DNA from: an uncultured Bacilli bacterium
Lineage (GTDB): Bacteria; Bacillota_I; Bacilli_A; RFN20; CAG-826
Length of the DNA: 42,657 nucleotides
Direction of reading: 5' to 3'
Assembly (NCBI GenBank): GCA_905235705.1
Contig: CAJOML010000003.1
Location: 1-42,657, forward strand
Shown here: positions 699 through 24,486 of the stretch, piece after piece
How positions within the stretch are numbered: position 1 is the stretch's first letter
Layout: each line of letters begins with the position of its first letter
Translations under genes and position numbers: made by a program
The notes under the pieces: model-generated
Databases searched by the model: none
What the model saw: only the letters and a program-made list of their open reading frames with translations
What the model was told of the DNA's origin: nothing

Positions 699-1421
699 GT
701 GAGTTTATTTATGGTGGCGAAAAAGAGATTATTGATATATATCATTGTCGAAGTCGCTTTACTCCTAACTTTGGTTGGCTTTCAAATCGCAACCGTGATA
801 CAGGGCTATAAAGTCTACGATAAAAGCGCCCCCCTGTTTTATCCCTATATCGCCTTATTCCAGGTGAGTTTAACATTTATCTCACTTGCCTTTGCTTTAA
901 TCGAATTCATCATCAGCAAAAGGAAAAAGGCTTATTTTGTTTGGCCTTTATATTTTTTGATCATTTCCATCGCCGATATCTTCTTTTCCTTAACCCCATA
1001 TGTCCTCGGTGGTCATATTGGCTTTACGTGCGCTTATTTGTTGTTTCTTTTCTACCGTAAGCCTAAACGTTTCGAATATGTCATCTACGGGGTTTTAATT
1101 GCCGCTGGAATTTCAATCCTAGCCATCATCAAAAAACTTAGCCCGATGATTGGGGTTGATATAGCTTTAGGGGTGCTTCTCATATCGAATTTAGTTGCCA
1201 CGTGGATTAAATATGGGAAAAGCAAAGACAAAAATATCAGACTTTTCGCCATCGCCTTAACCATTATCGTCATCAGCGATTTGACTATCGCCTTAAGGGC
1301 CGTGATTTCAAATCCATTGGCTTTAAATCATGCCATTAGCCTTATCACGTGGCCGACCTATATTGCCGGGAATATCCTGTTAGTTATCGCTTTCTTAAGA
1401 AAGCAGGAAAGCCTCTTATAA
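699..1421 (+). CDS. Polytopic membrane protein, unknown function
   Basis: 240 aa with multiple hydrophobic segments; GTG start at 699 or ATG at 711; tail-to-tail overlap with the 1416-3524 gene. Confidence 0.65.
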   Translation: MSLFMVAKKRLLIYIIVEVALLLTLVGFQIATVIQGYKVYDKSAPLFYPYIALFQVSLTFISLAFALIEFIISKRKKAYFVWPLYFLIISIADIFFSLTPYVLGGHIGFTCAYLLFLFYRKPKRFEYVIYGVLIAAGISILAIIKKLSPMIGVDIALGVLLISNLVATWIKYGKSKDKNIRLFAIALTIIVISDLTIALRAVISNPLALNHAISLITWPTYIAGNILLVIAFLRKQESLL

Positions 1422-3524
1422 AGTGATATTTAAAATGTTTTCCTGATTGGAATAGGTGTAATCCACTTTTTTGGCAAGGCTACGGACAACCGATATTCCT
1501 AAGCCTCCGACTAAACCTTCTTCCAGACTATCTTGGACTAGTCTTTTTTTGGTTTCGAGGGGGTTAAATCTCTTTCCGTTATCTTTGATACGAAGGGTGA
1601 TTCCTTCCTCTTCACGAAAAAGGGAAATCTCGATATATTTTTTGCCCTTGGTTTTGGCGTAAGAAATGATGTTATTCATCACTTCATCTAAGATAACGCC
1701 GGCTTTTGAGGCGATGGCGATATCATCTTTTTCCAGGAGTTCACCGACTTTATCGCTTGCATCGGAGATATTTTCGAAGGTCGGGTTTTCATAATATAGA
1801 TGAAGGTCTTCTTGATTGAATTTAATGGCCATCATCGTCATATCGTCAAAGGCTTCCCCTTTGGCAAAGGCGGCCACCTCCGCGGTGACGTGATCAATCA
1901 ATTCCAGGGGCGAAGCGCCTTTGCCTAGGGCTTGGATAAGGCGCTGCTGACCGAATTCTTCTTCCTTTTCGTCGATCGATTCGTTGACCCCATCGGTATA
2001 AAGGAAAAGGATATCGTCTTTTCCAAGTTGGATTTCCTGCTCTTCAAAGGTCATGTTTTCAACTGCCCCAAGGACGAAATTGGGGGAGACTTCGATAGGC
2101 TTGGCATCTTTCCCTTTTTCAAGGCGAAGTGGGGCAAGGTGAGCGGCATTGGCGTAACGAAGAAGATATGTCTTTAAATCGATGATCCCGAAGAAAAGGG
2201 TGACGAAATAGTTTTCTTTATTGTTCTGGCAAAGACGGTTATTCGCCTCATATAGGATTTGGCCGGGGGTCTTGATGCTAGTAAGGGCAACCGACTTTAC
2301 CGCCTCCTTGGCCTTCATCATGAATAAAGCGGCCGGGATGCCTTTCCCTGAAACATCGGCGATGACGATGCCAAGGTGTTGATTATCGATGGGGAAATAA
2401 TCGTAAAAATCGCCGCCCACGGTCTTGGCTGGTTTCATGCTGGCGCGAAGTTCAATGCCATGAGTGAAGAAAGAGCCTTCGGGTAAGGATTCGAGTTGGA
2501 TTTTGCTGGCGACTTGAAGCTCGGCTTCCATTCTTTGCTGGATGGCGGCGTCTTTTTTAATATGGTCGACGTAGGTGATGATTTGCTTTTCCATGATGAT
2601 GATATCGCGGTAAAGATCGCTGATTTCATCATGGGTTCTGATGTTTGCCTCCACCTCTTTTAAGGGGAGGTTATTATTCATCATCGCCACAAAATCCTGC
2701 GCAGATCGCGAGGCTTTTTTGACGTTATTGACGATAAAAGCCTTAGCAAGGAAGGCGTAAGCGGTAACTAAAATCAAGGAAACGCCTAAGCAAGCAAGAA
2801 GCTCGGAAGCCACTTGTTCGGTTGTGTTTTTATTTAACGTGCCTAAGAGGATGACGTTTGTCGAATAGAAGATATAGGTCTTGCCATTAACTTCCCTAGT
2901 TAGGCTTTTGGCATAGGATCGGATGAAGTCGTTGTTAGAAGAAACGGTTTCGGTTAGTTCGCTTTGGGCAAAGAAAGCATTGGCCTCCTCGCTAGCGTTA
3001 GTGATGTATCCGCTGGGATTATCGGCGATGCCTTGGGTAGGGACGAAAAAGGAGATATCTTTCTTTCTTGCGACGTCATAAATGGAAATATCCATAAGCA
3101 TGGTGTCGTAATAGGCGTTGATGGTGGAGGCCTTTGTCAATAAATCGTTATAGATGTTGGCTCTTCTCCCCATATCTTGGCTAAATCCAAGGGTGCCGTT
3201 TCCTCCTCCGCCATAAAGAGAACGATTGAAGTCTTTAATATAAATAACCTTATCTTCCTCGCTTAGGGTGTCATAACGGTCGGCCATACCCTCATATTGC
3301 GCGAATAATGTATCGAAAATGTTGGTATCAGGACCAACCGAATCAAGAAAAAAGCCTGACATCAGGTGGTTAGCATCGCCACAATCATTGACATAGGATT
3401 GCTTCAATTTGTTATAAGAGACTATTGAAGAAATCGTTAAAGTGATGGCGGTGACGAAAAGAGTCAGCCCACCGGTCAGGGCGATGATTTTGGTTAGGAT
3501 TTGCGACCGCCTGATTTTAGCCAT
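1416..3524 (-). CDS. Membrane SpoIIE/RsbU-type PP2C phosphatase with HAMP-like linker and C-terminal RsbW-like HATPase domain
   Basis: N-terminal TM, extracytoplasmic region, second TM and HAMP-like region; PP2C core (GGDFYDYFPID, VIADVSGKGIPAALFM, LFLYTDGVNESID); C-terminal HATPase motifs (ILDEVMNNIISYA, LRIKDNGKRFNP, GGLGISVVRSLA). Confidence 0.9.
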   Translation of the reverse strand: MAKIRRSQILTKIIALTGGLTLFVTAITLTISSIVSYNKLKQSYVNDCGDANHLMSGFFLDSVGPDTNIFDTLFAQYEGMADRYDTLSEEDKVIYIKDFNRSLYGGGGNGTLGFSQDMGRRANIYNDLLTKASTINAYYDTMLMDISIYDVARKKDISFFVPTQGIADNPSGYITNASEEANAFFAQSELTETVSSNNDFIRSYAKSLTREVNGKTYIFYSTNVILLGTLNKNTTEQVASELLACLGVSLILVTAYAFLAKAFIVNNVKKASRSAQDFVAMMNNNLPLKEVEANIRTHDEISDLYRDIIIMEKQIITYVDHIKKDAAIQQRMEAELQVASKIQLESLPEGSFFTHGIELRASMKPAKTVGGDFYDYFPIDNQHLGIVIADVSGKGIPAALFMMKAKEAVKSVALTSIKTPGQILYEANNRLCQNNKENYFVTLFFGIIDLKTYLLRYANAAHLAPLRLEKGKDAKPIEVSPNFVLGAVENMTFEEQEIQLGKDDILFLYTDGVNESIDEKEEEFGQQRLIQALGKGASPLELIDHVTAEVAAFAKGEAFDDMTMMAIKFNQEDLHLYYENPTFENISDASDKVGELLEKDDIAIASKAGVILDEVMNNIISYAKTKGKKYIEISLFREEEGITLRIKDNGKRFNPLETKKRLVQDSLEEGLVGGLGISVVRSLAKKVDYTYSNQENILNITL

Positions 3525-3528
3525 GTTT

Positions 3529-3828
3529 TTATTCGATATTCAGGAAACGGTTAAAGCCGGTCGCTTGGAAGATTTCGGTAACGACGGGATTGACGTGGGT
3601 GATTTTCAATGTCTTGCCTTCGGCTTCGGCGTCTTTCTTAAAGACGATGAGGGCTCTTAAGCCAGCCGAGGAGATATATTGGAGTTTGGCAAAATCAAGG
3701 ACCAAGTCGAATCCTTTTCTTTCCTCCAAGGTGATTTTATCGGTCAATTCTTGGGCACCGACGGTATCCATTCTTCCTTCTAAGAAGATGGTGAGGGTGC
3801 CTTCTACTTTATTTGAGGTGATTTCCAT
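3529..3828 (-). CDS. STAS-domain anti-sigma factor antagonist (RsbV/SpoIIAA-like)
   Basis: 99 aa; GRMDTVGAQEL and phosphoacceptor-type motif LQYISSAGLRALI; 4-nt gap to the phosphatase gene. Confidence 0.9.
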   Translation of the reverse strand: MEITSNKVEGTLTIFLEGRMDTVGAQELTDKITLEERKGFDLVLDFAKLQYISSAGLRALIVFKKDAEAEGKTLKITHVNPVVTEIFQATGFNRFLNIE

Positions 3829-3846
3829 ATGGGTAACATCCTTTCT

Positions 3847-6800
3847 TTATATATCATCCCGGTCGAAGAAGCCGAGGGTTTCAAGCGCTTCGATGGCTTT
3901 CTTGAGGTATTCGAAGTCGGTAATGGGCCAACGATACCCTAGACGATACAGGGCCTGCACTGAATAGGATACATCGGAATCGATGAATTCGTGAGAGCGA
4001 TTATCACTTGAAGCGTAAGAAATAAGCGAAGAGACGATAGGCGCTTTCTTTTCGTCTAACATGGCTCCCTTCATGTTTGCTTTGAAGGTTTCGTCGTCGA
4101 CATTATCGATTTTGATGCCGATAAGATTCATGGCGGCGATGATATCGGCCATCTGGACGCGGTGGCAATTGAAGGAATGGAAGACGGTATATTCTACGGG
4201 TGTGGTGGCGAGTAAAAGAATCGTCTTCGCCGTTTCGTCGATCGGTGAGAAGTCGGTTTCCTTATGAAGCCCGGAGATGGGGAATTGGCCAAGGACCTTA
4301 TAACCTTTAAGGTTACGCATGAAGGCGTTGGTGACGGAATTGATTTGGAATTCGCCGTCGCTTTGTCTAGGCATAAGGTTGCCAACGCGGATGATTTTGG
4401 CATCCAGACCATCGTTTTCGATGGCGTCTAAGATGGCTTCTTCGGCTTTGAATTTGGAATGGCAATATTTATTGGAGATATCCTGCCCGAAATAGAGCTG
4501 ATCCTCTTTCATCTTATAATTAGAAGGGAATTTATGGTCGATGTTTTCGCCGGCTACCGATAAGGTCGAGACTTGGATGAATCTGGCTTTTTTCGCTTTG
4601 GCGACTTCGATGAGGTTTTTTACCCCGCCGACATTGACTTTTTCGATGATGTCGGAGCTAGCGAAGTGTTTGACGATCGCGGCCGCGTTAATGATGGTAT
4701 CGAATTCCATTCCCTCAAGACGTTCGAGAAGGTGGTCATCGGTGATATCCTCGCCGACGACTTTGACATATTTTTCGACCTCCTCTTCCAAAGGAGAATC
4801 GAAATAATACATGAGTAACCCTTTGATACGGTCAAGGGGGTCAAGTGTTTTCGAACGGACCAAAATGGTGGTTTCTATTCCTTGGGCAAGCAATTCGCGG
4901 AAGATATGGATGCCAAGGAAGCCAGTGGCCCCGGCAAGGAGGACTTTGCCGAGTTCCCTTTCTTTCTTAATGCCACCAAGGAAGGCGACGTTATTATGGG
5001 ATAAGGAAGAACGCTCGGCATCGTCGAGTGAGACGACTTTTTCTTCTTTGGGGGCGTTATCTTTATTCGATTCCATATAGGCGGCAAGTTCACGTGGGGA
5101 AGGATGGGCGAAGATGTCTTGATATGAGAGCGAATATCCCTTATTTAAGGCGAAAACGACGACTTTTGCGGCGCTTAAGGAAGTTCCGCCGATATCAAAG
5201 AAGCTATCATTTGCCCCGACTTTATCTAGCCCAAGGATTTGCTGATATGCCTCGGCAAATTCTTTTTCCAAAGGCGTTTCAGGGGCGACATATTCGGAGG
5301 AAGAATCAACGAAGACGGGTTTAGGAAGGGCGCGCTTATTGACTTTCTGATTTTGGTTAAGGGGGATCGCATCAAGCTGCATGATAGAAGAAGGCACCAT
5401 ATAAGCGGGTTTATTTTGCTTGATATGGGCTTTTATGGCATTGATGTCCAAATTGCTGGAGGCGGTGAAATAAGCGGCGAGGAATTTGCCGCCGGACTCG
5501 CTATCGAAAGCCTGGACGGTCGCATCTTTAATCCCGGGGAAGGAACGGATAGCCATTTCGACTTCCCCAAGTTCGATACGGAAGCCACGGATTTTCACCT
5601 GCCCGTCATTACGTCCGATAAAGTCGATTTCGCCATTATATAGACGCCTGACGATATCGCCGGTTCGATAGGCACGTTCATATCCTTTTTCATCGGAAAA
5701 AGGGTTTTTGACGAAAGAAGCAGCCGTTTTTTCGGGCAAATTCAAATATCCTAAGCCAACCCCATATCCGGAAATATAGAGTTCGCCAAGGGCACCGATA
5801 GGAAGCTCTTTGCCTAACCGATCAACGACATAGAGACAGTAATTATCCAATGGTTTTCCAATTGGCACGCGGAGATCTAATCCACTCACCGGATGAGCGG
5901 TGGAGAAGATCGTGCATTCCGTCGGTCCATAGCCATTGTGGAGAGTATAACCGGCAGGAGGTTCAATCGGGACGAGCTTTTCTCCGCCGACGGAGAGGTG
6001 ATGGAGGGAGCTCTTGCCGATTTCGCTAGCGAATAGACGTCCGACCTGCGTCGTCATGAAGCTATGGGTAACCCCATTTTTCTCAAAATAGGCTTCGAGT
6101 TGGTCGAGGTTCATGCGGATATCATCGGGCACGACGCAGACACCGGCCCCGCAAGTCAAGGCCGGATATAAATCCATCATCGAGGCGTCAAAGCCGAATC
6201 CGGCATAGGCGGCGACGACGTGATTGGGTTTCAAATCATAATAGCGATGATACCAGTGGCAGAAATTGATGAGGTTGCCTTGGGTTAACATCACCCCTTT
6301 AGGTGTACCGGTGGTGCCGGAGGTATAAAGAAGAATCATCAAATCGTCAAAAGAAGGACCCTGCAAGGCAATGTCTTCTTTAGGAAGGGAAGCGAAATCT
6401 TTGGTGAAGAGGACGGGCTTATTCCAGCTTGGTAGTTTGGAAAGAAGTTCTTCATCGGCGATAAGAATCATCGAAGAGGCGTCTTCGACCATAAAGAGCA
6501 AACGCTCTTCCGGATAAGAGCAATCCAAAGGTTGGTAGGCAGCCCCTGTCTTCATCACGCCTAAGGTGGATAAGACCATATTTTGGCTGCGGTTAATCAA
6601 GATAGAAGCGACTTTTCCTTTGCCTAAGCCTTGCTTAGCCAAAGCAAAGGCGATGCGGTCGGTGATTTCATCGACTTCTCGATATGTGAGTTTTTTGTCC
6701 TTATAGATGACGGCGACGTTGTTTGGATAGGTTTTGGCCGCTTTCTTGAAGGTGCTAATTAAGTCGGTTCTTTCAATCGGGGAATCAGTCGCATTCCACT

Positions 6801-9800
6801 GATCTAATTGGGCCTTCTTTTCTTCATTTAAGAAGGACATGTCATCGGGATCAACGCCATGGAGGAGTTGATTAAAGGCAAGCGAGGTGGCTTCTAATAA
6901 AGAAGTGACACTCCAAGCCTGATAACGGTCGCCATCATATTCGAAATGGAGACGATATCCTTCTTGCGTATCGGAAATGCTTAGCAATAAGGCGGCTTTG
7001 GCTTCGTTAAGGGAAAGCAAATCGATTCCTTCGATGGGCATATCGCCAAAGCTATAGCCTTGGGCGATTTTTCCTTCATAGACGAAGAGGATATCCGCCC
7101 TCATCTCGAATTCGTGGGCGATATCGGCAAAGGAGAAGGAATCATTAGCCATGCTTTTTTTGATTTGTTCGGCCACGTCTTGGACGTAACTTGTCCCCTT
7201 TTTACCGGGGAAGGGATCGCAGGTCACGGGTAAGGTATGAACGAACATACCGATGGAAGAACGAAGTCTTGCGTCGTTTCTGCCGTTATAAACGGTTGCA
7301 AAAATGGCATCATTTCGATTTAAGAATTTCGCAAGGGCTAGACCGAAAGAAGCAATCCAAAGGCTATTGGGGGTGGTTTTGGTGGAGGAGAGGAAGCTTT
7401 CGACTTCTTCTTTATCCGCTTTTACATCGATTTCGACTTCTTGTTTGCCCCTTCCTTTTTCGGCGTGATCGGGGACGGGGAGGCAATCGATGTCGCGACC
7501 TTCCAAGATGCTTGCATAATGCTGTTTTGCCTGATTGTATTCCTCACCTTGACGGAGCTTTTCTTCATCAAGGGACAAATCGAATTCGCTGTAGGCTTCT
7601 TTTTCTAGTTTCTCCCCCTTATAGGCGCGGTCGATATCTTTCATCAAGACGTCAAGGGATTCGCCATCGAAAATCATATGGTGGGCATCGAAGAAGAAGA
7701 CGTTTTCGGATTTGCCCTTAAGTAAGGCAACGCGAGTTAAGGGATCGTGGATGATATCAAAAGGCCTAACTAGGCTTTGCGCCCCGCCTTCTAAAGTATC
7801 GAGGTCAAAATGTCCGATAGGAAGGTCGCTTTCATCTTGGCGGAGAATCCTAAATTGCCCTTCTTCGTTGCTAATCAAACGGACTTTTAGATAAGGGTGG
7901 GCATCGAGAGCCTCTTTAACCGCTTTTGCGAAACGGTCGAGGTCGATTCCTTTAGGCAAGGTGATGGCGGTCGGCACGTTATAGATGGTGGTGTCAGGAT
8001 GGGCTAATGCCTCGGTAAGGATGCCTTGTTGGGCGGAAGTAAGAGGGTAATCTTTTTGTAAGGCATGGGTCTCGTCATTGTCTTTTTCGTTTAAATAGGC
8101 AAGGAGCTTCTCAATGCTTGAATGATTGACGAGTTCGCTTACGCGGACCGATTTATGAAGGAGGGAAGAAAGCTCGGATGTGAATTGCATGGCGCTAAGG
8201 GAGGTAAGGCCGATTAAATCGAAATCATCGGTAACCCCGAAATCACCATAGCCAACGATGCGGGCCAAGGCTTGATAGACTTTTTCCTCAAGTTCGTTAC
8301 GCGGGGCAATCGATGCGATGGAGGCGTGAGTTGGTTCAGGCAAGGCTTTGCGGTCGATTTTGCCACCGGGAGTCATTGGCATTTCATCAAGACGGATGAA
8401 AACGGTGGGGACCATGTATTCGGTTAAGCGCGAACCCATCTTGGCCTTGAGGTCGTTTTCATCAATTTCCCCTTCGGCTGAATAATAAAGGACAAGTTGC
8501 TTGTTTTTGACGCTGGCGAGGACTTGTTTGATATGAGGATAAGAGGAAGCGGCGTTTTCGACTTCGCCAAGTTCGATGCGGAAACCTCTAAGTTTGACTT
8601 GGAAGTCGATGCGTCCGCAGTATTCGAGTTCGCCTTCTTCGTTATATTTGGCGAGGTCACCTGTTTTATACATCTTCTCTCCAGGTAAGAAGGGGCAGGG
8701 GATGAAGCGTTCTTCGTTGAGTTCGGGACGATTATAGTAGCCACAGCTCATTTGAATGCCAGAAAGGCAAAGCTCGCCGATCATGCCACGAGGCAAAAGA
8801 TTCCCGAAAGGATCGCAGATGAAAGAATAAGAATTCGGGACGGCCCGACCAATGGGAATATCTTTGTCTTTTTCCTGGTCGACTAAATGGGCGGATGAAC
8901 AAACCGTGAATTCGGTTGGGCCATAGCCGTTATAGACGCGGATATTCGTCTTTTTGGTGGGCAGTAATTTTTCACCACCGACGACCATGTAATTGAGCTT
9001 TAAATCGGGATGGGCATTGATTAAGGACATACCGATTTGGGTGGACATCGTCAAGCCGGTGATTTTGTTGTCGCGAAGATAAGCGTAAATCAAATCCAAA
9101 TCCATGCGCACTTCTTCGGAGATGATATGAAGTTCCCCTCCGACGGATAAGGAAGCGAAGATATCGTGGACGGAGGCATCGAAAGAGAAGGAGGCGTGGA
9201 CGGCGGCGACGCTTTGCTCGGAAAGATCAAATGCGGCGATATGCCAAGAGAATTCGGCCACAAGCGATTTATGGAGGATAACGACGCCTTTAGGCTTGCC
9301 CGTTGAGCCCGAGGTATAAATCATATAGGCACGTCCATCAAGTTTGGAAAGATTGATCGGTTCGGCTTGTTTGCATTCTTCGAGCATTTTTTCGATGAAT
9401 GGTTCGTCTAAAACGAATTTCGCGCCGGAATCCTCGATCATATATTGGATACGGTCGGCGGGATAAGTGGGGTCAACCGGGATATAAGCCCCGCCGGCTT
9501 TCATAATCCCAACCAGGGAAGAGATGAATTCTTTGACTCGTTCGGTTTTGATGACGACGAAATCATTAGGCTGCAAGCCGTGATTAAGCAAATAGGAAGC
9601 GATGCGGTTAGAGACTTCATCTAATTCGCCATAGGTATATGACCCGTTTTTCGCGATGACGGCCTTTTTATTTGGATGTTTCTTGATTTGCTCCAAGAGG
9701 ATATCGATGAAAGTTTTATCTTTTTGATAATCGAGGTCTCCACCATAGGAAAGGGCGATAAGTTCTTTCGTTTCTTTTTCATCGACGATCGTGATTTCTT

Positions 9801-11052
9801 TTGTTTTTGCCTTGGTGAGGAAGCCAAGTAGCACTTTGCCGTAAGAAACGAGAAAGCCTTCGATAAAAGCTTCGCTATAGAGGTTAGCTTGATATTGGAT
9901 GGAAGCGACCATTTTGCCATTTTCGACATAGACGGAAAACGACATCTTCTCGCCGGTGGCTTGATAAGGTAAATGCTCAAATGGGGCTTTCTCCTCTCCC
10001 CATTTTTGCATGTCATAGAGGGTGCCTTGATAAGCGAAAAGGATATCGCTGGTATAGCCGCTACTGGAGGCAAGTTCGGAGAATGAATAAGCGTCATTGG
10101 CCCTTGTCCCCATGATCTGGGCTTTCATCTTGGCTAGATGTTGTAAGGTTGTTTCTTTGGGATCGATGATAGATAAGACGGGGAGGGTGCGGACAAACAT
10201 CGAGACGGTGCGATCGGTGGAATGGTCGTGACGTCCGATATAGATGGTGGCAAAAGCGGTCTTCTTCGTATTTGCATATTCGCTAAGAAGATAACCAAAT
10301 GCGGAGGTGGTTAAAACGGCGGGGGTGATATCGTTTTCTTTGTAAAAGGCCTTGATTTTATCGAAATCGATATCATATGAGGCTTTCTTTTCTTGAATCG
10401 AAACGGTGGTTTCTTTTTTATCTCCGGCGGGGATAGTGACTTCTTCGACGTCCCGGAAAGTCTCCAAATACCATTTCTTCGCTTCTTCGAAAGATTGTTC
10501 CCTTCTTTTGAGCTCGTCATTAGCGGCATCGAAGGCGGTGTAGGTTTCTTTTTCGATTTCCTTGCCTTCATAAGAAGCGGCCATATCCTGAAGAAGGATT
10601 GTCATAGAGAATCCATCGTAGACGATGTGATGGATATCCATAAATAGATAAACGGTGCCTTCGACTTCATATATGGCAAAACGGAAGAGACGGTCTTTAT
10701 CAAGATTAAAGGGGACGATGAGGCTTTCTTTTGCCTTGGTCCATTCTTGCTGATTTAAATGAACGACTTTAACGATTTCTTCCTTTTCTTCTAAGGGATG
10801 ATAGCGCATTAAGGGGAGACCGTCCTCGCCAAAAGCGATTTGCGAAAGCAGACCTGGGTGGCAAGCGAGCGTTTTTTCAACGGCGATTTTTAAGCGATCG
10901 ATATCGATTCCTTCAAAACGAAGCAAAGTCGGATTGTTATAGACGCTTTCGCCAACCCGTTGCATGCAGGATAGATAAATCCCCAATTGGGCTTGGTTAA
11001 GTGGCGCTTCTGATGTAGAAGCAAACGACTCGCCAGCAGATAAAGAAGACAT
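3847..11052 (-). CDS. Dimodular NRPS, C-A-PCP-C-A-PCP-R (terminal thioester reductase)
   Basis: C motifs HHIVYDG and HHMIFDG; A motifs YTSGSTGKPKG and YTSGTTGTPKG with YGPTE, YKTGD and YRTGD; PCP motifs DLIGLTSLSA and DIGGTSLSA; C-terminal Rossmann GATGFLG plus YCHSK (YxxxK). SD AGGGGGA upstream of ATG. Confidence 0.95.
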   Translation of the reverse strand: MSSLSAGESFASTSEAPLNQAQLGIYLSCMQRVGESVYNNPTLLRFEGIDIDRLKIAVEKTLACHPGLLSQIAFGEDGLPLMRYHPLEEKEEIVKVVHLNQQEWTKAKESLIVPFNLDKDRLFRFAIYEVEGTVYLFMDIHHIVYDGFSMTILLQDMAASYEGKEIEKETYTAFDAANDELKRREQSFEEAKKWYLETFRDVEEVTIPAGDKKETTVSIQEKKASYDIDFDKIKAFYKENDITPAVLTTSAFGYLLSEYANTKKTAFATIYIGRHDHSTDRTVSMFVRTLPVLSIIDPKETTLQHLAKMKAQIMGTRANDAYSFSELASSSGYTSDILFAYQGTLYDMQKWGEEKAPFEHLPYQATGEKMSFSVYVENGKMVASIQYQANLYSEAFIEGFLVSYGKVLLGFLTKAKTKEITIVDEKETKELIALSYGGDLDYQKDKTFIDILLEQIKKHPNKKAVIAKNGSYTYGELDEVSNRIASYLLNHGLQPNDFVVIKTERVKEFISSLVGIMKAGGAYIPVDPTYPADRIQYMIEDSGAKFVLDEPFIEKMLEECKQAEPINLSKLDGRAYMIYTSGSTGKPKGVVILHKSLVAEFSWHIAAFDLSEQSVAAVHASFSFDASVHDIFASLSVGGELHIISEEVRMDLDLIYAYLRDNKITGLTMSTQIGMSLINAHPDLKLNYMVVGGEKLLPTKKTNIRVYNGYGPTEFTVCSSAHLVDQEKDKDIPIGRAVPNSYSFICDPFGNLLPRGMIGELCLSGIQMSCGYYNRPELNEERFIPCPFLPGEKMYKTGDLAKYNEEGELEYCGRIDFQVKLRGFRIELGEVENAASSYPHIKQVLASVKNKQLVLYYSAEGEIDENDLKAKMGSRLTEYMVPTVFIRLDEMPMTPGGKIDRKALPEPTHASIASIAPRNELEEKVYQALARIVGYGDFGVTDDFDLIGLTSLSAMQFTSELSSLLHKSVRVSELVNHSSIEKLLAYLNEKDNDETHALQKDYPLTSAQQGILTEALAHPDTTIYNVPTAITLPKGIDLDRFAKAVKEALDAHPYLKVRLISNEEGQFRILRQDESDLPIGHFDLDTLEGGAQSLVRPFDIIHDPLTRVALLKGKSENVFFFDAHHMIFDGESLDVLMKDIDRAYKGEKLEKEAYSEFDLSLDEEKLRQGEEYNQAKQHYASILEGRDIDCLPVPDHAEKGRGKQEVEIDVKADKEEVESFLSSTKTTPNSLWIASFGLALAKFLNRNDAIFATVYNGRNDARLRSSIGMFVHTLPVTCDPFPGKKGTSYVQDVAEQIKKSMANDSFSFADIAHEFEMRADILFVYEGKIAQGYSFGDMPIEGIDLLSLNEAKAALLLSISDTQEGYRLHFEYDGDRYQAWSVTSLLEATSLAFNQLLHGVDPDDMSFLNEEKKAQLDQWNATDSPIERTDLISTFKKAAKTYPNNVAVIYKDKKLTYREVDEITDRIAFALAKQGLGKGKVASILINRSQNMVLSTLGVMKTGAAYQPLDCSYPEERLLFMVEDASSMILIADEELLSKLPSWNKPVLFTKDFASLPKEDIALQGPSFDDLMILLYTSGTTGTPKGVMLTQGNLINFCHWYHRYYDLKPNHVVAAYAGFGFDASMMDLYPALTCGAGVCVVPDDIRMNLDQLEAYFEKNGVTHSFMTTQVGRLFASEIGKSSLHHLSVGGEKLVPIEPPAGYTLHNGYGPTECTIFSTAHPVSGLDLRVPIGKPLDNYCLYVVDRLGKELPIGALGELYISGYGVGLGYLNLPEKTAASFVKNPFSDEKGYERAYRTGDIVRRLYNGEIDFIGRNDGQVKIRGFRIELGEVEMAIRSFPGIKDATVQAFDSESGGKFLAAYFTASSNLDINAIKAHIKQNKPAYMVPSSIMQLDAIPLNQNQKVNKRALPKPVFVDSSSEYVAPETPLEKEFAEAYQQILGLDKVGANDSFFDIGGTSLSAAKVVVFALNKGYSLSYQDIFAHPSPRELAAYMESNKDNAPKEEKVVSLDDAERSSLSHNNVAFLGGIKKERELGKVLLAGATGFLGIHIFRELLAQGIETTILVRSKTLDPLDRIKGLLMYYFDSPLEEEVEKYVKVVGEDITDDHLLERLEGMEFDTIINAAAIVKHFASSDIIEKVNVGGVKNLIEVAKAKKARFIQVSTLSVAGENIDHKFPSNYKMKEDQLYFGQDISNKYCHSKFKAEEAILDAIENDGLDAKIIRVGNLMPRQSDGEFQINSVTNAFMRNLKGYKVLGQFPISGLHKETDFSPIDETAKTILLLATTPVEYTVFHSFNCHRVQMADIIAAMNLIGIKIDNVDDETFKANMKGAMLDEKKAPIVSSLISYASSDNRSHEFIDSDVSYSVQALYRLGYRWPITDFEYLKKAIEALETLGFFDRDDI

Positions 11053-11188
11053 AGAATTCCCCCTAAATAATCTTAAAAAGATTTTTTAACATCTTGTAGG
11101 ATAGTATAGTCTAAGGTCACTTTGCAAAAAAGGAAAAAACATTGAGGTAAGCCCCTAAGGGGATTAAAATTCTCCATGAGGTAAAATT

Positions 11189-12079
11189 ATGAAACAGATG
11201 CGTATTCCTTTATATGTTGTTCTTGGCATTGCCGTCATCGGAATCATCTTCGGTTCGTTCTTCGATCTGCAGATTTCTTCGGCGATTGCTTCCTCCACCA
11301 GCGGATTCGGCTTAGGCGTATCCATCGTCGGCCCAACCATCGGCTTTATGGGATTAGCTTTATTTGGAGGTGGATTCATTGGCTTAGCGATCCATGGCCA
11401 ATATCCAAAATGGGCCAAAGCCTTATTTTGGGTTGCCGGCATTGCCAGTTATGTCGTCTCCGTTTATTTTTCCGGCACCGAATATTTCGGCGTCAACGGA
11501 TTCTATGGCAATATCCCCGAATGGGTTGGCTTTATCATCGCCGCTATTCCTTTGGCCGGGGCTGAAGTCGGTGGCTATTTCTTATTTAGAAAAACCGAAA
11601 ATAAATATGCATGGGTTATCTATCTTATCGCCTTCGCCGTCTTGTTATTGACCCTTGTTGGTGGCGTTACGGGTTTAAAGGCGATTTTCCATCGTCCCCG
11701 GTTCCGCACCGTTTCGACAACTGCGATCGACTTCCATAATTGGTGGCAGCCCTGTCGCGATTATAAGAATTTGATGCAAGCATATGGGCTCGTCTCCGAA
11801 GAATTTAAATCCTTCCCCAGTGGCCATACCGCCGAAGCTAGCATTCTTCTTGTCACGACGACTTTCGCTCCGCTTGTGAATCCGAAATTAAAGAAGATTC
11901 AGCTTCCTTGTTTCATCGTCGCCTTTGCCTTTGTCATGTTAGTCGCCTTTGCCCGTATCTTAGCCGCCGCCCATTATTTAAGCGATGTCTCCATGGGGGC
12001 AACGATTACCACTATCTTCACCGTCATCGCCAACGAAATCGTGATTCACAACAAGCGACTTCAAGAAACAGCGAAATAA
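11189..12079 (+). CDS. PAP2-superfamily phosphatase, integral membrane
   Basis: Motifs KAIFHRPRFR, FPSGHTAEAS, AAAHYLSDVSMGA; several TM segments. Confidence 0.88.
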   Translation: MKQMRIPLYVVLGIAVIGIIFGSFFDLQISSAIASSTSGFGLGVSIVGPTIGFMGLALFGGGFIGLAIHGQYPKWAKALFWVAGIASYVVSVYFSGTEYFGVNGFYGNIPEWVGFIIAAIPLAGAEVGGYFLFRKTENKYAWVIYLIAFAVLLLTLVGGVTGLKAIFHRPRFRTVSTTAIDFHNWWQPCRDYKNLMQAYGLVSEEFKSFPSGHTAEASILLVTTTFAPLVNPKLKKIQLPCFIVAFAFVMLVAFARILAAAHYLSDVSMGATITTIFTVIANEIVIHNKRLQETAK

Positions 12080-12086
12080 AGCCTTA

Positions 12087-12117
12087 ACAGCCAGGTGATG
12101 ACTTGGCTGTTTTTATT
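12087..12117 (+). terminator. Rho-independent terminator after PAP2 gene
   Basis: ACAGCCAggtgatgacTTGGCTGTttttatt. Confidence 0.75.
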
Positions 12118-12161
12118 GAATATCCAGGGCGCTTTGATATGCTTTTAGGCGGAGGAAAATT

Positions 12162-12845
12162 ATGAAAAGAATCCAAGAAACCGTCGTTGCCTATATTTCC
12201 ATCATCTTTGGGGCTTTGCTCTTATTGATCTATCTCAATGCTTTAGGAGGTGGCAATGGATTAGGCATTGTCCTTGGCGTCATCGCTTTAGTCATGGCGA
12301 TTTATTATATCGCCATCGGCGTTATCGATGCTGTGGCAGGGGACAAATTACCCGCAAAAGCCAATAAAATCTTTGGCATCATTTCGATTGCCGCTTACCC
12401 CGTTTTATTCTTCGTCCAACTTTTGATCGTCATGATTGGGAATAAAGATTTCTTCGTCCCGACTGGTTGGGTGATTTCCATCTTAGGTATGGTCGCTTCG
12501 CTTGGTTTTGCCATTATCTACGTCGTTTCCAAATTCGCAGGCTCCTTAGCCTTAAAGAAGATTACCCGTCTTTGCGGTATGGTCTTTGCTTTGGTGATGC
12601 TACTCAACGTCTTATTCGATGCCTTTGGCGCACCTAACGCATTAGGACAGATTTCCCTGATCGGAACCATCACCTATATTGCTTATGGTTTTATGCTTTA
12701 CACGGCTTTAAAAGAGAAAGAAGAAGCGGTCGAGCCCGTCCCTGCCCCAGTCCAAGAAGAAGCCGAAGAAGCCCCCACTGAGATTGCTCCGGAAGAAGCT
12801 GAGCCTGAAGAAGAACCAAAAGAAGAACCTAAAGTCGAGGAATAA
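12162..12845 (+). CDS. Small polytopic membrane protein with acidic Glu/Pro-rich C-terminal tail
   Basis: SD GGAGG before ATG; hydrophobic body; tail EEAVEPVPAPVQEEAEEAPTEIAPEEAEPEEEPKEEPKVEE. Confidence 0.75.
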   Translation: MKRIQETVVAYISIIFGALLLLIYLNALGGGNGLGIVLGVIALVMAIYYIAIGVIDAVAGDKLPAKANKIFGIISIAAYPVLFFVQLLIVMIGNKDFFVPTGWVISILGMVASLGFAIIYVVSKFAGSLALKKITRLCGMVFALVMLLNVLFDAFGAPNALGQISLIGTITYIAYGFMLYTALKEKEEAVEPVPAPVQEEAEEAPTEIAPEEAEPEEEPKEEPKVEE

Positions 12846-15007: not shown

Positions 15008-16123
15008 TTATTTACGTTTTCGGAAGGCGAATAAGCCAAGGGTTCCATCGCCATCATAATCGAATAAGCATTGGTTTGCCCATTCGTTGGTGGTCGGTTT
15101 TTCGGTCTCGTGGATATATTCTTCGCCTTCTTTGCTGGCCCAGCTAAGCCCTGGCAAAGGAAGCCATAAAGGCTCCCAGTAGATTATCGCATCGACGTGA
15201 TGCGATTTGGCTTTCTTTAGAAGGGTGGAAAGGAAGGATGCTTGCCCTTGTTGGGTCAAAGGATAAGGTTCACTTGCATCGCCTTTTTCAAATAAGGTCT
15301 TGTCGACGAGGGGTTTGAAGGGGATGGAGTCCTTATAAGCCGTCTCATAGGTGAAACCATAAGAGGTCTCGACAATCCAAACCGTCTTTCCATAACGCGT
15401 CCTAACGAAATCGACGTTAGAGAAGAATTCGTCAAAGCCGTGATGCCAATATGGGTAATAAGAGAGGCCGATGATATCAAAGGGAAGTTTCGCTTTGGTG
15501 ACTTCGTCGAAGAATTCGCCATAGACGTCCTTATCGTAGCTTCGTTCCAAGTGGATGACGATTTTCGCTTCAGGATAGATTTTCTTGGCCGATACGATTC
15601 CTTGCTTTAAAAGAGGGATAAAAGAATCATAGCCTTGACGGGGGCTTCCTTCTTCGCCGCTAAGTTTGCCATAGGGCCAAAGCATCCCGTTGGTAATCTC
15701 GTTGCCGATTTGGATGGCTTCGAGTTCAATCCCCTCTTCATGAACGGTTTTAAGGGAGGATTCAACGTAATTTTGCAAGATTTCAATGAGTTCTTGCAGG
15801 CTTTTCGGCTTCCATGATTTGGGGAGGAATTGCTTGCCTGGATCGCACCAAAAGTCAGAAAAATGGAAATCAAGGAGAATCTTATACCCCTTGTCCATAC
15901 CGACTTTGGCAAGGCGAAGGAAAGAATCCATATCGCTACTGCCGCCACCATAAGGGCGGCCCTCCTCATCATAAGGATTCACCCAAAGACGAAGGCGCAT
16001 GATGTCGCATCCGTTGACGTCATGAAGATAGCTTACAGGGTCAACGCGGCGACGGAAAACCGTATAGGAGGCGCCGGCTTCTAGACATTCTAGGTACGAT
16101 GAAATATCAATTCCTAATCTCAT
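15008..16123 (-). CDS. GH53 endo-beta-1,4-galactanase-like protein, no signal peptide
   Basis: MRLGIDISSYLECLEAG..., LDFHFSDFWCDPGKQFLPKSW, acid/base IQIGNEI, nucleophile VWIVETSYGFT; no N-terminal hydrophobic segment. Confidence 0.9.
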   Translation of the reverse strand: MRLGIDISSYLECLEAGASYTVFRRRVDPVSYLHDVNGCDIMRLRLWVNPYDEEGRPYGGGSSDMDSFLRLAKVGMDKGYKILLDFHFSDFWCDPGKQFLPKSWKPKSLQELIEILQNYVESSLKTVHEEGIELEAIQIGNEITNGMLWPYGKLSGEEGSPRQGYDSFIPLLKQGIVSAKKIYPEAKIVIHLERSYDKDVYGEFFDEVTKAKLPFDIIGLSYYPYWHHGFDEFFSNVDFVRTRYGKTVWIVETSYGFTYETAYKDSIPFKPLVDKTLFEKGDASEPYPLTQQGQASFLSTLLKKAKSHHVDAIIYWEPLWLPLPGLSWASKEGEEYIHETEKPTTNEWANQCLFDYDGDGTLGLFAFRKRK

Positions 16124-16380
16124 TGTTCGCCCGCCTTATAAGGATGGAAGGAAAGGGGCTCGTTATCTTTGCCAATACCATCGATTCTATCCCCATAATG
16201 GGCATATTTCTCTTTGCAGTTTTCGTTCCAATGGAGGACTTTTTCCTCATCGCCATGGAAACAGCAACGGATGCAATAATATTCTTTCTTCTCCTCGTCA
16301 TAGAACATGTCGATGTCGAGGTCGCGTTCAAAACAAACGGGGCAACGGAAATTTAGTTTGCCTTTTTTACTTTGAGCCAA
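16120..16380 (-). CDS. Small zinc-ribbon-like protein, unknown function
   Basis: 86 aa with CPVC...CIRC spacing; start overlaps upstream gene and stop overlaps downstream GH53 gene. Confidence 0.75.
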   Translation of the reverse strand: MAQSKKGKLNFRCPVCFERDLDIDMFYDEEKKEYYCIRCCFHGDEEKVLHWNENCKEKYAHYGDRIDGIGKDNEPLSFHPYKAGEQ

Positions 16381-18173
16381 GAGCTAACCCTCCCTTCTTT
16401 GATATTCTTTTTTGCGGATAAACGGAACATCGGGGAGAAGGCGATGCCTTCTTCGATCCTTGCCCTAGTTCCGTCGCCACCGACTTCCAAACGGGCTTGG
16501 ATTTGGGGGACGTTGGCATAAGCGACCCCATCTTTCCCTTCGATGTGACGGTATTTATAAAGGTAATCGATTTGGCAAGGTTCGCTTCCCTCGATACCTA
16601 AGGTGATGCCAGTCATATCCAAGGAATATTCTTCCTTGCCATAGGTGGCAACGATATAGTCCTCGATTTCGACTTCAAGTTGATTGGGGTTATCGAGGAT
16701 GATACGTTCGAAGACGATTTCCCCTTTCCCTTTCTTGAAGATGAAACGGGATTGCATTTTGATGGTCCCATCGCTAAAAGCAACGTCGAATGGGTCGGTT
16801 GTAAGGACGGTATCTTCGCCTTCTTTGCAGTAGGTTGCCATCGTCCTTTCCAAAGCCAAATCGACGATTTCGTCTTTATATTTGACTTGGCAGGATTTTA
16901 AGGTCCCTTGTCCGGCGTAATGGGTGAAGTAGCCAGCCCTATAATTGGCTTGGATCATGTAAGGGTAAGACGCGTTATAGGCATTCCCGGTGCCAATGCC
17001 AACGGGGATCTCGAGCTTAGCGGCATAGTTGCGAAGATCGATCATGGCCCCGCCTTGGTTGAAGTCAAGACAGCAACGTAAATAGGGGTCATAATACCAG
17101 AAATACTGCTTATCCGAGCCATAAAGGATATCTTTCCATAAAGCCACTTCGGGGGTCTTATAGTCAGGATGTTCTTTCCGGTAATAGGCTGCATATTCTT
17201 CCATCGTCATATCGATGAGGCGGCCTTCCTTTTTGAGTTTGCCATAATAATCCAAGGCATCCTCATAGGACTTCTTCAATAAAGAATAAGGGGCTTCCCA
17301 ACGGCCGAGCTTATTTAACCAGCCCGGTCCGACGAACATCATATTATAGGCGTGTCCATCATTATATTTGGCTTGGTGGGCAAACATGTCGACGAGGTTA
17401 TAGAAATAGGGGATTTCGTTATTTTTATAAATCATCCCACGGAGGACATTCTGCGGATGGGTGCCAAAGTTGGAGCCGTTGCCGTCAAAGCAAGCCATCG
17501 GGTCACGGCTAAGGTGGGGGATGGCGACGATGCCGGAATCCTCTTCTTCGTTTTCCGCCGGCATCGCCGAGTTGATTTTAGAGGGGATCCAAGGGGCCCA
17601 AGGTCCGCCATCCATAAACGTATACCAGGAATTGTTGGTCGTGTGGTATGCCTTAACCCCTTCTTCGAAGCAGGTGGCAACCGCGCAAGTCACGGATGGA
17701 TAAGTGGCCTTGATGTAATTGATGGTAAAAGCGTCAAGATAGTAAGACCCGGTGGAAGCGGGATAGAACCCGAATTTCTCTTTGAAGAGGGCAAAGCAAT
17801 CATCGACGATGGCTTTTTTGTCTTCATCGGAGAACATCCAGATGCAGAAATCCTTTGTTTTGTATTTTTCTTCGAACTGAGGGCAAGGAAGGCCAAGCAA
17901 AGTCAACGCGATTTCATCGCCATAAAGTTCGTGGTGCTTTTTGGCAAGGGAGACAACCGTGTCGTTAAATAAGGAGGCGTAGGTCATCTCGATGGTGGTT
18001 TTTAAGCCACGGGAATGGGCGCATTCTTGCTGAAAGAGGAAGATGGAAAGGGATTCGTCTAGCAGCGCATCATCGCCTAGTTCGTCCTTTTTGCCGTTTT
18101 GCGTCAGCTTTTGCGCGTATTCAGGGGCCATTTCGGGCCGATGAATTAAGGTGAGGATAAAATCGTTTTTCAT
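16353..18173 (-). CDS. Uncharacterised 606-aa protein, possible GH57/NodB-like barrel plus C-terminal beta domain
   Basis: Intact ORF in the galactan operon, no signal peptide; long aromatic-rich conserved-looking region (FGFYPASTGSYYLDAFTINYIKATYPSV..., WYTFMDGGPWAPWIPSK). Family not identified with confidence. Confidence 0.7.
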   Translation of the reverse strand: MKNDFILTLIHRPEMAPEYAQKLTQNGKKDELGDDALLDESLSIFLFQQECAHSRGLKTTIEMTYASLFNDTVVSLAKKHHELYGDEIALTLLGLPCPQFEEKYKTKDFCIWMFSDEDKKAIVDDCFALFKEKFGFYPASTGSYYLDAFTINYIKATYPSVTCAVATCFEEGVKAYHTTNNSWYTFMDGGPWAPWIPSKINSAMPAENEEEDSGIVAIPHLSRDPMACFDGNGSNFGTHPQNVLRGMIYKNNEIPYFYNLVDMFAHQAKYNDGHAYNMMFVGPGWLNKLGRWEAPYSLLKKSYEDALDYYGKLKKEGRLIDMTMEEYAAYYRKEHPDYKTPEVALWKDILYGSDKQYFWYYDPYLRCCLDFNQGGAMIDLRNYAAKLEIPVGIGTGNAYNASYPYMIQANYRAGYFTHYAGQGTLKSCQVKYKDEIVDLALERTMATYCKEGEDTVLTTDPFDVAFSDGTIKMQSRFIFKKGKGEIVFERIILDNPNQLEVEIEDYIVATYGKEEYSLDMTGITLGIEGSEPCQIDYLYKYRHIEGKDGVAYANVPQIQARLEVGGDGTRARIEEGIAFSPMFRLSAKKNIKEGRVSSWLKVKKAN

Positions 18174-18181
18174 AATGGTAA

Positions 18182-20815
18182 TTATTTATGGGTAAGGGCG
18201 AAGTCGGTCATTCTTCCCCAGGCGCCGCCTTTGGCATTGACTTCCAAGCCGACGGTGACTTTTTTGCCTTCGGGGATATTGATCCCTTCTAATAAGACGT
18301 CTTTGGTTGAGGCAACGTCAGAAGTCGTCCAGGGAAGGAGATAGGTATCGCTATTGAGGTCGAATGTCACTTTCTCGGCGCCTTCGACTTGGTAATAGAA
18401 GACGAATGATTCGTACTTATCCTTGGTGGCGGAAAGGAGATGGAAAGAGAAAGTGTATTCCCCGGCGGTGAGGCCTTTGATGTTTTGATGGACGTCGAAG
18501 GAGAAAGCGGATTCGGCCCACCATTTGAAGTAATTGCTGGTGCCTTCTTCTTTCTTCATGGATTCGTTATCGGCGACGGATAAGATATTGCTTTCATCAT
18601 GTCCGACAATCCAAGGAGAGTTAGGAGCGGCCCATAAGGTTTGGGCGGCGAGGTTACCGTCTTCAAGAGCGCCAGTGGCGACGTATTCCTCTTCGGGGAG
18701 GATCTCTTGATGCTTGGCAAAGGACCAAAGATCATTATGACCCCAAGCCGAACCGACGGCTTCAACCGTCATACCGACGGTGATATCGGTGCCGTTAGCA
18801 GGGATTTCGATATTTTGGATGAGGCCGTGTTGCATATATCTAGCTAAGGGGGCGCCCCAACCTTTGACGAGGACGGAAATCATATCGACGGTGACTCTTT
18901 CTTGGCCATCGATTTGATACCAGAGGTCGAACTTCTTATATAAGGAAGCGGTGTCACCGGCCATGACATAGGTGGAAAGGTCGTAGTTGCCCTCTTTTAC
19001 GTTGGTGATTTTTTGCTGCAAGGTGAAGCCGAAATCGGAGACGTTATACCAGTGGAAATATTTATTCCCATCGAGGTTACCGGCCGATTTTTCTTCGATC
19101 CAGACGACGTGTTTGCCGGTGACTTTGGAAAGTTCCCAAGGCTCTTTGACTTCGACTTCTTCTCCGCTTCCTTGGTTTTCGAAGGAATAATCGGCGATAT
19201 AGTTGGTCTCGGCTTTGACTTTGGCGACGACGTCGAAGGTGTTATCGACTTTGCCGTTAACTTCATAATCACCATCGCCATCTTCTAAGATTTTGGCGAT
19301 TTTGGCTTCGTCCCAAGTCACGGGGCGGGCACGTAAGGCGTCGAGGTTGGTCTTAACCTGCAAAGTGGTGGGCAAATTGACTTTGCCATCGAGGAGGTTG
19401 ACGTTGACTTCGATTTCGTCTGCGACTAACCCAGCGGCGACTTCTTCGACTTTGCGGTCGCCTTCTTGGATATGGCGATAGGCGCTTGCCCCAGGAAGGG
19501 CTTTGCCGGTGTAGGAGAACCAGCCTTGGTTGCACCAAGAAGGCAAGCAGGATTTATCGGTATAGGCTTCGAATTGCATAAGCGAGGTGGCGTCTTTGCC
19601 GTTGTCGTTATAATATTGGCCCGCTTTAGAAGCCCAGGTTGAACCAGCGACGGGAAGCCAAGCGGGTTCCCAATAGAAGATGCCGCGTCCGCCTTGATTT
19701 TTCACTTCGGAAAGCAAGGAGACGAGATCGGCTAATAAAGTGGCTTGGCCTTGGTCGCCGGTGATATAACCACCGGTGGATTCGAAGGTGGAGGAATGGT
19801 ATTGGTTTTGGCAATTTTCGTTAGGATCATCGGTCACGCCATAGGCGGTTTCGGCGATGATGCAGGGCTTGCCGTAATTATCCTGGATGGTGTTCATGAT
19901 ATTGAGGAGGTTTTCCTGGCTACCATGCCAATAGGGATAATAAGAAAGGCCGACCATGTCATAATCGATATCTTTGACGGCATCGAGGAAACGATAGACG
20001 CCTCTGGGGGATTTGATATTGGTCAAATGGACGAGGGCCTGGATGCTAGGGAAGACGGATTTGGCGCCTTTAACGCCAGCATCGACCATTTCGGCGATGG
20101 TTTCGCCTTCGGAGGTCGGGATTTCCGCGATGGCGGTATTGGTTTCGTTACCGATTTGGACCGAATCGACGGTGATACCGGCATCTTTGAAGGCTTGGAG
20201 GGATTCCTTGGTGAAATTGCCGATTAATTCGGGCAGTTCATTGGGCAAGGCATCGGCCCAGGCTTTGGGGAGCCATTGCTTGCTGGGGTCGGCCCAGGAG
20301 TCACTATAATGGAAGTCGATAAGGACTTTCATGCCGGCTGCTTTGGCGCGTCTAGCCAAAGCGATATCGGTGGCTAAATCGTTGGTGCCGCCGCCATAGG
20401 GAAGGGGCTTTCCGTTTTCATCTTTTAATTTCTCGGAATAGGGGTTATTCCAAAGACGGAAACGGGCATAGTTGACGCCATCGTTATAAAGAAGTTTGAA
20501 GATGTCTTGTTCTTTTCCTTCTTCGTTATAGTAAACGCCGCCATTGGCTTCGATTTCGGCGACGATGGAAAGGTCGGCGCCATAGGCGAAATCGTTGACG
20601 AGGGCATTCTTGGGGGTGTTGACCTTTAAGGAAGCGTAGTCATGAGGCTCATCGTTGGTTTTTCCTTCGGGCTTGGGTTGCCAAGATGTGGAGATCTCTC
20701 TTTCGCTTGAGGAGGTCTCGCTTTGCTTGGTGGATTCGCTGCTATTTCCTCCCCCTCCGCAAGAAGCGAGGGTCAACGCGGAGAGAAGCAGGAATAAGGG
20801 GCTTAGTTTTTTCAT
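18182..20815 (-). CDS. Secreted lipoprotein GH53 endo-beta-1,4-galactanase with Ig-like and tandem C-terminal CBM-like modules
   Basis: Lipobox LASC; GH53 core (NYARFRLWNNPY, LIDFHYSDSWADPSKQWLPKAW, VQIGNET, IIAETAYGVT); Ig-like VTWDEAKIAKILEDGDGDYEVNGKV; two related C-terminal modules. Confidence 0.93.
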   Translation of the reverse strand: MKKLSPLFLLLSALTLASCGGGGNSSESTKQSETSSSEREISTSWQPKPEGKTNDEPHDYASLKVNTPKNALVNDFAYGADLSIVAEIEANGGVYYNEEGKEQDIFKLLYNDGVNYARFRLWNNPYSEKLKDENGKPLPYGGGTNDLATDIALARRAKAAGMKVLIDFHYSDSWADPSKQWLPKAWADALPNELPELIGNFTKESLQAFKDAGITVDSVQIGNETNTAIAEIPTSEGETIAEMVDAGVKGAKSVFPSIQALVHLTNIKSPRGVYRFLDAVKDIDYDMVGLSYYPYWHGSQENLLNIMNTIQDNYGKPCIIAETAYGVTDDPNENCQNQYHSSTFESTGGYITGDQGQATLLADLVSLLSEVKNQGGRGIFYWEPAWLPVAGSTWASKAGQYYNDNGKDATSLMQFEAYTDKSCLPSWCNQGWFSYTGKALPGASAYRHIQEGDRKVEEVAAGLVADEIEVNVNLLDGKVNLPTTLQVKTNLDALRARPVTWDEAKIAKILEDGDGDYEVNGKVDNTFDVVAKVKAETNYIADYSFENQGSGEEVEVKEPWELSKVTGKHVVWIEEKSAGNLDGNKYFHWYNVSDFGFTLQQKITNVKEGNYDLSTYVMAGDTASLYKKFDLWYQIDGQERVTVDMISVLVKGWGAPLARYMQHGLIQNIEIPANGTDITVGMTVEAVGSAWGHNDLWSFAKHQEILPEEEYVATGALEDGNLAAQTLWAAPNSPWIVGHDESNILSVADNESMKKEEGTSNYFKWWAESAFSFDVHQNIKGLTAGEYTFSFHLLSATKDKYESFVFYYQVEGAEKVTFDLNSDTYLLPWTTSDVASTKDVLLEGINIPEGKKVTVGLEVNAKGGAWGRMTDFALTHK

Positions 20816-21630
20816 TTGTCTTTCGTCCTCCTGTTTTCTTGACGATAGGCTTGGGGTGATAAGCCATAATAGGCATGGAAGGCTTTGGAGAAGTGGAGGG
20901 GGTTAGGGTAACCAACCGATATGGCCACTTCGGTGATGGAACGCGAGGTGAAGCTCAATAAACGAGCCGCCTCTTCCATCCGCAGCCTCGTCAATAAGGT
21001 TTTGGGGTTTTCCTCCCCTTCCCTTTTAAATAAATTGGCGAGGTAGTTGGGGGAGACGCCGATACTTCTAGCGACGTCTAAGATGGAGATTTTGAATTGG
21101 TAATTGTTGGCAATGAAGGCTTTGGCGGCCTGGATATGCCCTTTTTCTTTGAATTGTTTCGGGGTTTCTTTGCCCTTGACCATCTTATCTAATAAAGCGT
21201 AGGCTTCGGCAAGGCAATCTAGCCCGAACTTGCCATTTAGGAAATAGGATTCGTAAATGGCTTCGAAGTGGGAACGTCCTTCTTTTTTCTGATCGTGGAG
21301 GACGGGGACTTCTTGGCTAAATCCAGCCAAATTCAGAAGCGCGTTGATACGACTTCCCCCAAGTCCCACCCAAAGGTAGGACCAGGGGTTATCTTTTTCG
21401 GCTTGGTAAGAGGCTGAATCGCCAGCCCGAATCAAGAAGCAATCACCGGCTTTTAGGCGATAACTCACCCCGTTACGGGTAAATATCCCGCGCCCTGCAT
21501 AGACATAATGCAAGGTGGCATAGGGTTTCGGGGTGAAGACGATGTTTTTATCCGCGATGCAGGTTTCTCTTCCCGCCTCGGCGACAGAGACGTCGAGAAA
21601 GGAAGAGGAGTCGACTAGGCTTAAATCCAT
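20812..21630 (-). CDS. AraC-family regulator with cupin-like N-terminal domain
   Basis: C-terminal HTH motifs (ISILDVARSIGVSPNYLANLFKREG, ITEVAISVGYPNPLHFSKAFHAYYGLSPQAYR); start placed at the internal ATG at 21630, ORF extends to 21666. Confidence 0.92.
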   Translation of the reverse strand: MDLSLVDSSSFLDVSVAEAGRETCIADKNIVFTPKPYATLHYVYAGRGIFTRNGVSYRLKAGDCFLIRAGDSASYQAEKDNPWSYLWVGLGGSRINALLNLAGFSQEVPVLHDQKKEGRSHFEAIYESYFLNGKFGLDCLAEAYALLDKMVKGKETPKQFKEKGHIQAAKAFIANNYQFKISILDVARSIGVSPNYLANLFKREGEENPKTLLTRLRMEEAARLLSFTSRSITEVAISVGYPNPLHFSKAFHAYYGLSPQAYRQENRRTKDK

Positions 21631-21637
21631 GTTGGGT

Positions 21638-24459: not shown

Positions 24460-24486
24460 GAAGGGATTTCCTTTTCCTATGAATGA

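Follow-up and report, generated by a model that had tools for sequence, protein, structure and literature searches.

The stretch of DNA that was analysed (the window, 42,657 nucleotides from an uncultured Bacilli bacterium) carries on its reverse strand an NRPS gene, which is followed by the genes for a STAS protein and a membrane-bound phosphatase. The features are listed below.

3847..11052, minus strand: NRPS of 2401 aa with the domain order C-A-T-C-A-T-R (Pfam and NCBIfam; motifs intact)
3850..5304, minus strand: terminal carrier protein and thioester reductase of the NRPS (closest solved sequence 6vtj, E=1e-85)
3839..3844, minus strand: AAAGGA, a ribosome-binding-like site upstream of the STAS gene (read from the sequence, 10 nt before the ATG)
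3529..3828, minus strand: STAS protein of the anti-sigma-factor-antagonist family, 99 aa (Pfam, TIGR00377 above cut-off, alignment)
1416..3524, minus strand: membrane sensor, SpoIIE phosphatase and RsbW-like HATPase in a single protein of 702 aa
1818..2384, minus strand: SpoIIE phosphatase domain (166 bits; catalytic aspartates invariant in 18 relatives)
1422..1709, minus strand: RsbW-like HATPase domain (canonical N, G1 and G2 boxes)

All three genes run in the same direction, as the initial annotation had described, with gaps of exactly 18 nt (3829-3846) and 4 nt (3525-3528) between them, and a promoter scan lent no support to internal promoters (7 promoter-like sites, versus 13.3 in shuffles). 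Within the NRPS, Pfam recognised two Condensation, two AMP-binding and two PP-binding domains and an NAD_binding_4 reductase domain; the other two proteins matched STAS (3e-15) and SpoIIE together with HATPase_c_2 (2e-47 and 3e-14, respectively). Because the latter two domains occur in one open reading frame, the RsbU- and RsbW-like parts are fused, and judging from these profile matches the window does have the kinase half of a partner-switching module, joined to the phosphatase. Both HHxxxDG motifs and both carrier serines of the NRPS are intact, and so are GxxGxxG and YxxxK in the reductase domain and D372, D390, D511 and D560/D561 in the phosphatase, while alignment assigns to the STAS protein the conserved phosphorylatable serine motif YISSAGLR. 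With the phosphatase aspartates, the STAS serine and the ATP motifs of the HATPase all in place, the window can be read as encoding an RsbU/V/W-type module, and the two C-A-T modules with an active-site-intact reductase as a putative reductase-terminated dipeptide NRPS, the products of which are predicted to be small peptide aldehydes.

In agreement with what had been noted before, the Pfam search of the larger open reading frames recognised no sigma factor, drug-type exporter or phosphopantetheinyl transferase (PPTase) in the window; the sole transporters recognised were importer-type ABC components. PADLOC returned no defence match. Elsewhere in the window, positions 15008-25854 hold two genes of the endo-galactanase family GH53, an AraC-type regulator and an ABC importer with a solute-binding protein, and this is likely a galactan-use locus. 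The assembly from which the window derives (1.26 Mb, 77% complete) yielded two STAS and two SpoIIE-HATPase matches and no match for Sigma70_r2, PPTase or MATE-HATPase (a fusion found in relatives, see below). These absences are weak evidence, since the assembly lacks even a primary sigma factor.

To what extent the arrangement recurs was surveyed in 279 genomes of the order, using the carrier-reductase part of the NRPS (window 3850..5304) as query and profile searches to annotate the neighbourhoods. The NRPS was present in 49 of the 279 genomes, and in most loci the prevailing order was PPTase (optional), NRPS, MATE-HATPase, STAS and sensor-SpoIIE-HATPase, with typical sizes of ~2410 aa for the NRPS, ~590 aa for the MATE-HATPase, ~98 aa for the STAS protein and ~715 aa for the sensor protein. 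A PPTase (~200 aa) lies upstream of the NRPS in many loci, and the start of the MATE gene often overlaps the NRPS stop. Among the 35 loci whose downstream sequence extends for 4.7 kb or more, 26 have both STAS and SpoIIE, and the order was unchanged (NRPS, MATE-HATPase, STAS, SpoIIE) in a genome from another family of the class (G610). The suggestion that the association may be recurrent was thus borne out, STAS and SpoIIE being conserved beside most NRPS loci. For two of the genomes, G052 and L005 (Bacilli, from the omasum of a roe deer), Pfam confirmed that the MATE protein carries HATPase_c_2 as a C-terminal domain.

The MATE-HATPase occurred in 38 of the 279 genomes, with one match each; all 38 were NRPS-positive and none of the 230 NRPS-negative genomes had it (Fisher p about 2e-37, with the kinship of the genomes ignored). 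Overall, genome-level co-occurrence was very strong, with Fisher p values of about 1e-28 to 1e-37, again ignoring kinship. Orthologues of the sensor-SpoIIE protein (E below about 1e-90) were recovered from 33 of the 279 genomes, 32 of them NRPS-positive; in the g1-type NRPS branch the SpoIIE protein is more divergent and falls below this cut-off though adjacent to the NRPS. The one genome with the sensor protein and no NRPS match (G103) has it on a 4.5-kb contig that ends within a homologue of the gene intervening between NRPS and SpoIIE in L040, so the NRPS may fall in an assembly gap. In six genomes (G180, G185, G113, G120, G112 and G005) the STAS and SpoIIE genes are kept as a pair away from the NRPS, and in G052 it is the MATE-HATPase gene that is unlinked. 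Co-occurrence with the NRPS is therefore not explained by linkage alone, and from these gene contents and neighbourhoods the joint arrangement of NRPS and module exceeds chance. The plasmid collection contained no full-length MATE-HATPase, and no NRPS place exceeded 30% identity among the matches listed.

In a tree of the reductase domains the window is grouped, in a well-supported branch, with G207, G066, G058 and several g12 genomes. Within this branch STAS and the sensor-SpoIIE-HATPase accompany the NRPS in the window, and the MATE-HATPase of the wider operon family is absent: it was found in 0 of the 8 genomes of the branch versus 38 of the 41 other NRPS-positive genomes. The second adenylation code (read by motif, in GrsA numbering) is DAMFSGGIF in the branch, where covered, as compared to DAQFDGGIT, or DLQTDGGV followed by T, S or A, in the other branches. 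The missing MATE-HATPase is thus accompanied by a different predicted product, and an assembly gap is probably not its only cause. The SpoIIE and NRPS trees conflict: the former places the window with L005, L046 and L049, G207 with G211, and the g12 genomes with G218 and others, and the NRPS branch of the window is combined with at least three lineages of the STAS-SpoIIE module. In the g12 loci the STAS-SpoIIE pair is on the strand opposite to the NRPS. Two further members deviate in that G066 has an NRPS lacking an adjacent module and G058 an NRPS lacking a SpoIIE match of the orthologue kind. The G066 locus (L045) encodes a 2948-aa NRPS of the window branch, which has three adenylation domains, and neither STAS nor SpoIIE nor MATE lies close by. 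G207 has two PPTases elsewhere in its genome, and hence an NRPS without a PPTase in its cluster is not necessarily inactive.

In the module the STAS serine motif is conserved, like the phosphatase aspartates. The MATE-fused HATPase has kept the N-box Glu/Asn and the DDG of the G1 box in 35 of 35 copies, where covered, and misses the first Gly of the G2 box. In the SpoIIE-fused HATPase the G1 box is degenerate in many relatives, including the MATE-less G207, in which the protein at the NRPS locus is the single HATPase_c_2 protein of the genome. At the MATE-less loci L038 (7522-9672), L039, L040 and L044 the G1 Asp of this domain is replaced, resulting in SNG or NNG. A complementarity of one active and one dead HATPase, divided over the MATE and SpoIIE fusions, is refuted as a general rule, for the sole HATPase of G207 and the g12 genomes is degenerate and there is no MATE copy. 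As to the input, the envelope signal that had been proposed is plausible, given two predicted membrane helices around ~190 residues, but no ligand-binding fold was identified in this part. Among 18 relatives of the sensor protein, Pfam gave weak HAMP matches for 4 and no other sensor domain for any, and AlphaFold, run on an alignment of the sensor protein with one relative, gave a model too poor for a fold search (mean pLDDT 49).

In annotations, partner-switching genes are as a rule taken for regulators of sigma factors. A classical switch, with a remote alternative sigma factor that is held by the HATPase and drives transcription of the NRPS operon or of stress genes, would fit the domain set, which matches RsbU/RsbV/RsbW, the STAS score above the TIGR00377 (ant_ant_sig) cut-off, and the further, smaller sigma factors of some relatives. 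A Sigma70_r2 search that covered 25 genomes nevertheless found exactly one such protein, of 422-439 aa, in each of six NRPS-positive genomes that are 94-98% complete (G207, G215, G211, G218, G212 and G204). This is the size expected of the primary sigma factor, and the search is sensitive enough, as it detects smaller sigma factors in other relatives. A sigma target in these six genomes is on this count very unlikely, while the window's own genome, at 77% completeness, may still hold one; control through a distant sigma factor, one of the two options offered by the initial annotation, is not supported. Since the output HATPase is moreover fused to a transporter in most relatives, we regard the classical scheme as improbable for the family. 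Equally small is the chance we give to a module that serves some other cell function and merely travelled, or is transcribed, together with a mobile NRPS cluster. The patchy presence of the NRPS (49/279), the conflict between the NRPS and SpoIIE trees, which makes transfer common, and the other STAS-SpoIIE loci in the same genomes are in line with such a history, but the co-occurrence persists where the genes are unlinked and the phosphatase residues remain invariant.

The other option, in which STAS acts on a non-sigma partner, is favoured, with the RsbW-like HATPase on the MATE exporter of the relatives as the candidate partner, although the window itself lacks this fusion. Taken together, the loci probably represent a natural-product unit that is governed by partner switching with an output other than a sigma factor, and with slightly more assurance we consider it likely that in the NRPS/STAS/SpoIIE family product formation or export is under non-sigma, post-translational control. 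The membrane sensor would, upon an envelope signal, set the phosphorylation state of STAS; the unphosphorylated STAS protein would dock on the HATPase of the exporter, like RsbV on RsbW; and the docking could, at the post-translational level, gate export or link it to the synthetase. Our confidence in exporter gating as such is lower and stays somewhat short of an even chance. The complete scheme, with a MATE exporter whose fused RsbW-like domain is bound and released by STAS in response to the envelope sensor, and with another target, perhaps the synthetase, being switched in the MATE-less branch, is put forward tentatively. If the gating reading is true, the secretion of peptide aldehydes would be tied to an outside signal without a transcription step. 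As the window has no MATE-HATPase, the exporter mechanism is not directly applicable to it; there STAS would most likely act either on the synthetase, which is the simplest candidate, or on a partner encoded elsewhere, the kinase being the HATPase of the sensor protein itself. The degenerate G1 box of the sole HATPase in the MATE-less G207 and g12 genomes is not accounted for by the exporter/STAS scheme. One could extend the synthetase reading to all members, such that STAS or the HATPase binds the NRPS directly and the MATE-HATPase is a second, separate target. That the window branch retains the module in the absence of the MATE-HATPase, and does so with three or more module lineages, argues for this view, but no STAS-binding-like domain or extension was seen on the NRPS, and G066 and G058 carry the NRPS of the branch with no adjacent module; we hold it to be unlikely, if less so than the two alternatives above.

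Several known systems resemble parts of the unit. The solved structure closest to the carrier-reductase part, 6vtj, is presumably that of the NRPS of Methanobrevibacter ruminantium. AusA (NF047350) was the top NCBIfam match of the window NRPS (1128 bits, below the model cut-off of 2500), and AusB that of the PPTase of the roe deer genome (below its cut-off of 225 bits). The aureusimine synthetase AusA/AusB is likewise a two-module reductase-terminated NRPS with a cluster PPTase, but the loci described here have an additional first condensation domain and the partner-switching module. RsbU/RsbV/RsbW and SpoIIE/SpoIIAA/SpoIIAB share the phosphatase, STAS and RsbW-like kinase domains with their conserved residues; they differ in that here the kinase domain is fused to the phosphatase and, in relatives, also to the MATE exporter, and in that the six near-complete relatives have no alternative sigma factor. 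Partner switching with a non-sigma target, a diguanylate cyclase, is on record for SiaABCD of Pseudomonas aeruginosa (PMC7647112, PMC8457831), which also has a membrane SpoIIE-type phosphatase and a switch protein acting on that target; the SiaA model matched P0001 at 51.8 bits, well below the model cut-off of 700 bits.

The neighbourhood in a rumen methanogen that the initial annotation mentioned does exist: it comprises mru0066, 0067, 0068, 0069 and 0071 of M. ruminantium and was published in 2010, with a regulatory suggestion, as an NRPS/phosphatase/antagonist/MatE neighbourhood (PMC2812497). The NRPS there has a terminal thioester reductase domain (Fig. S8 of PMC2812497) and, like in the window family, a two-module C-A-T NRPS with reductase lies beside a serine phosphatase, an anti-sigma factor antagonist and a MatE protein; the host, however, is an archaeon, and a MatE gene is present where the window has no MATE gene. 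In the open-licence literature we found no report of a MATE-HATPase fusion with an NRPS, this genome paper being the only related item. As far as that literature shows, the fusion and its exclusive co-occurrence with the NRPS in the order are new, as are the absence of alternative sigma factors and a MATE-less branch that was repeatedly paired with modules.

The family thus places a partner-switching module, in genomes apparently devoid of an alternative sigma factor, with natural-product synthesis, and in most members the likely target domain is fused to an exporter. It offers a concrete case, open to testing, in which secondary metabolism of uncultured bacteria would be controlled after translation, and bears on the timing of peptide aldehyde production or release. 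Some related loci were encountered as well. The genome of the window has what by its domains looks to be a second module, on contig C31 (L093, 256-3292), where a STAS domain fused to an APH-type phosphotransferase domain is followed by a membrane SpoIIE-HATPase; a similar pair comes after the NRPS operon in L057. In L068, NHLP-type exporters (TIGR03796 above cut-off) are followed by STAS. Finally, L101 of G066 (2198-12224) encodes a SpoIIE phosphatase, a HipA-like protein, a radical SAM protein and two ABC transporters placed like NHLP bacteriocin exporters, together with STAS, a Nif11-type leader peptide and, on the other strand, a stand-alone RsbW-like HATPase, a gene content that marks it as a putative second natural-product locus with partner switching.
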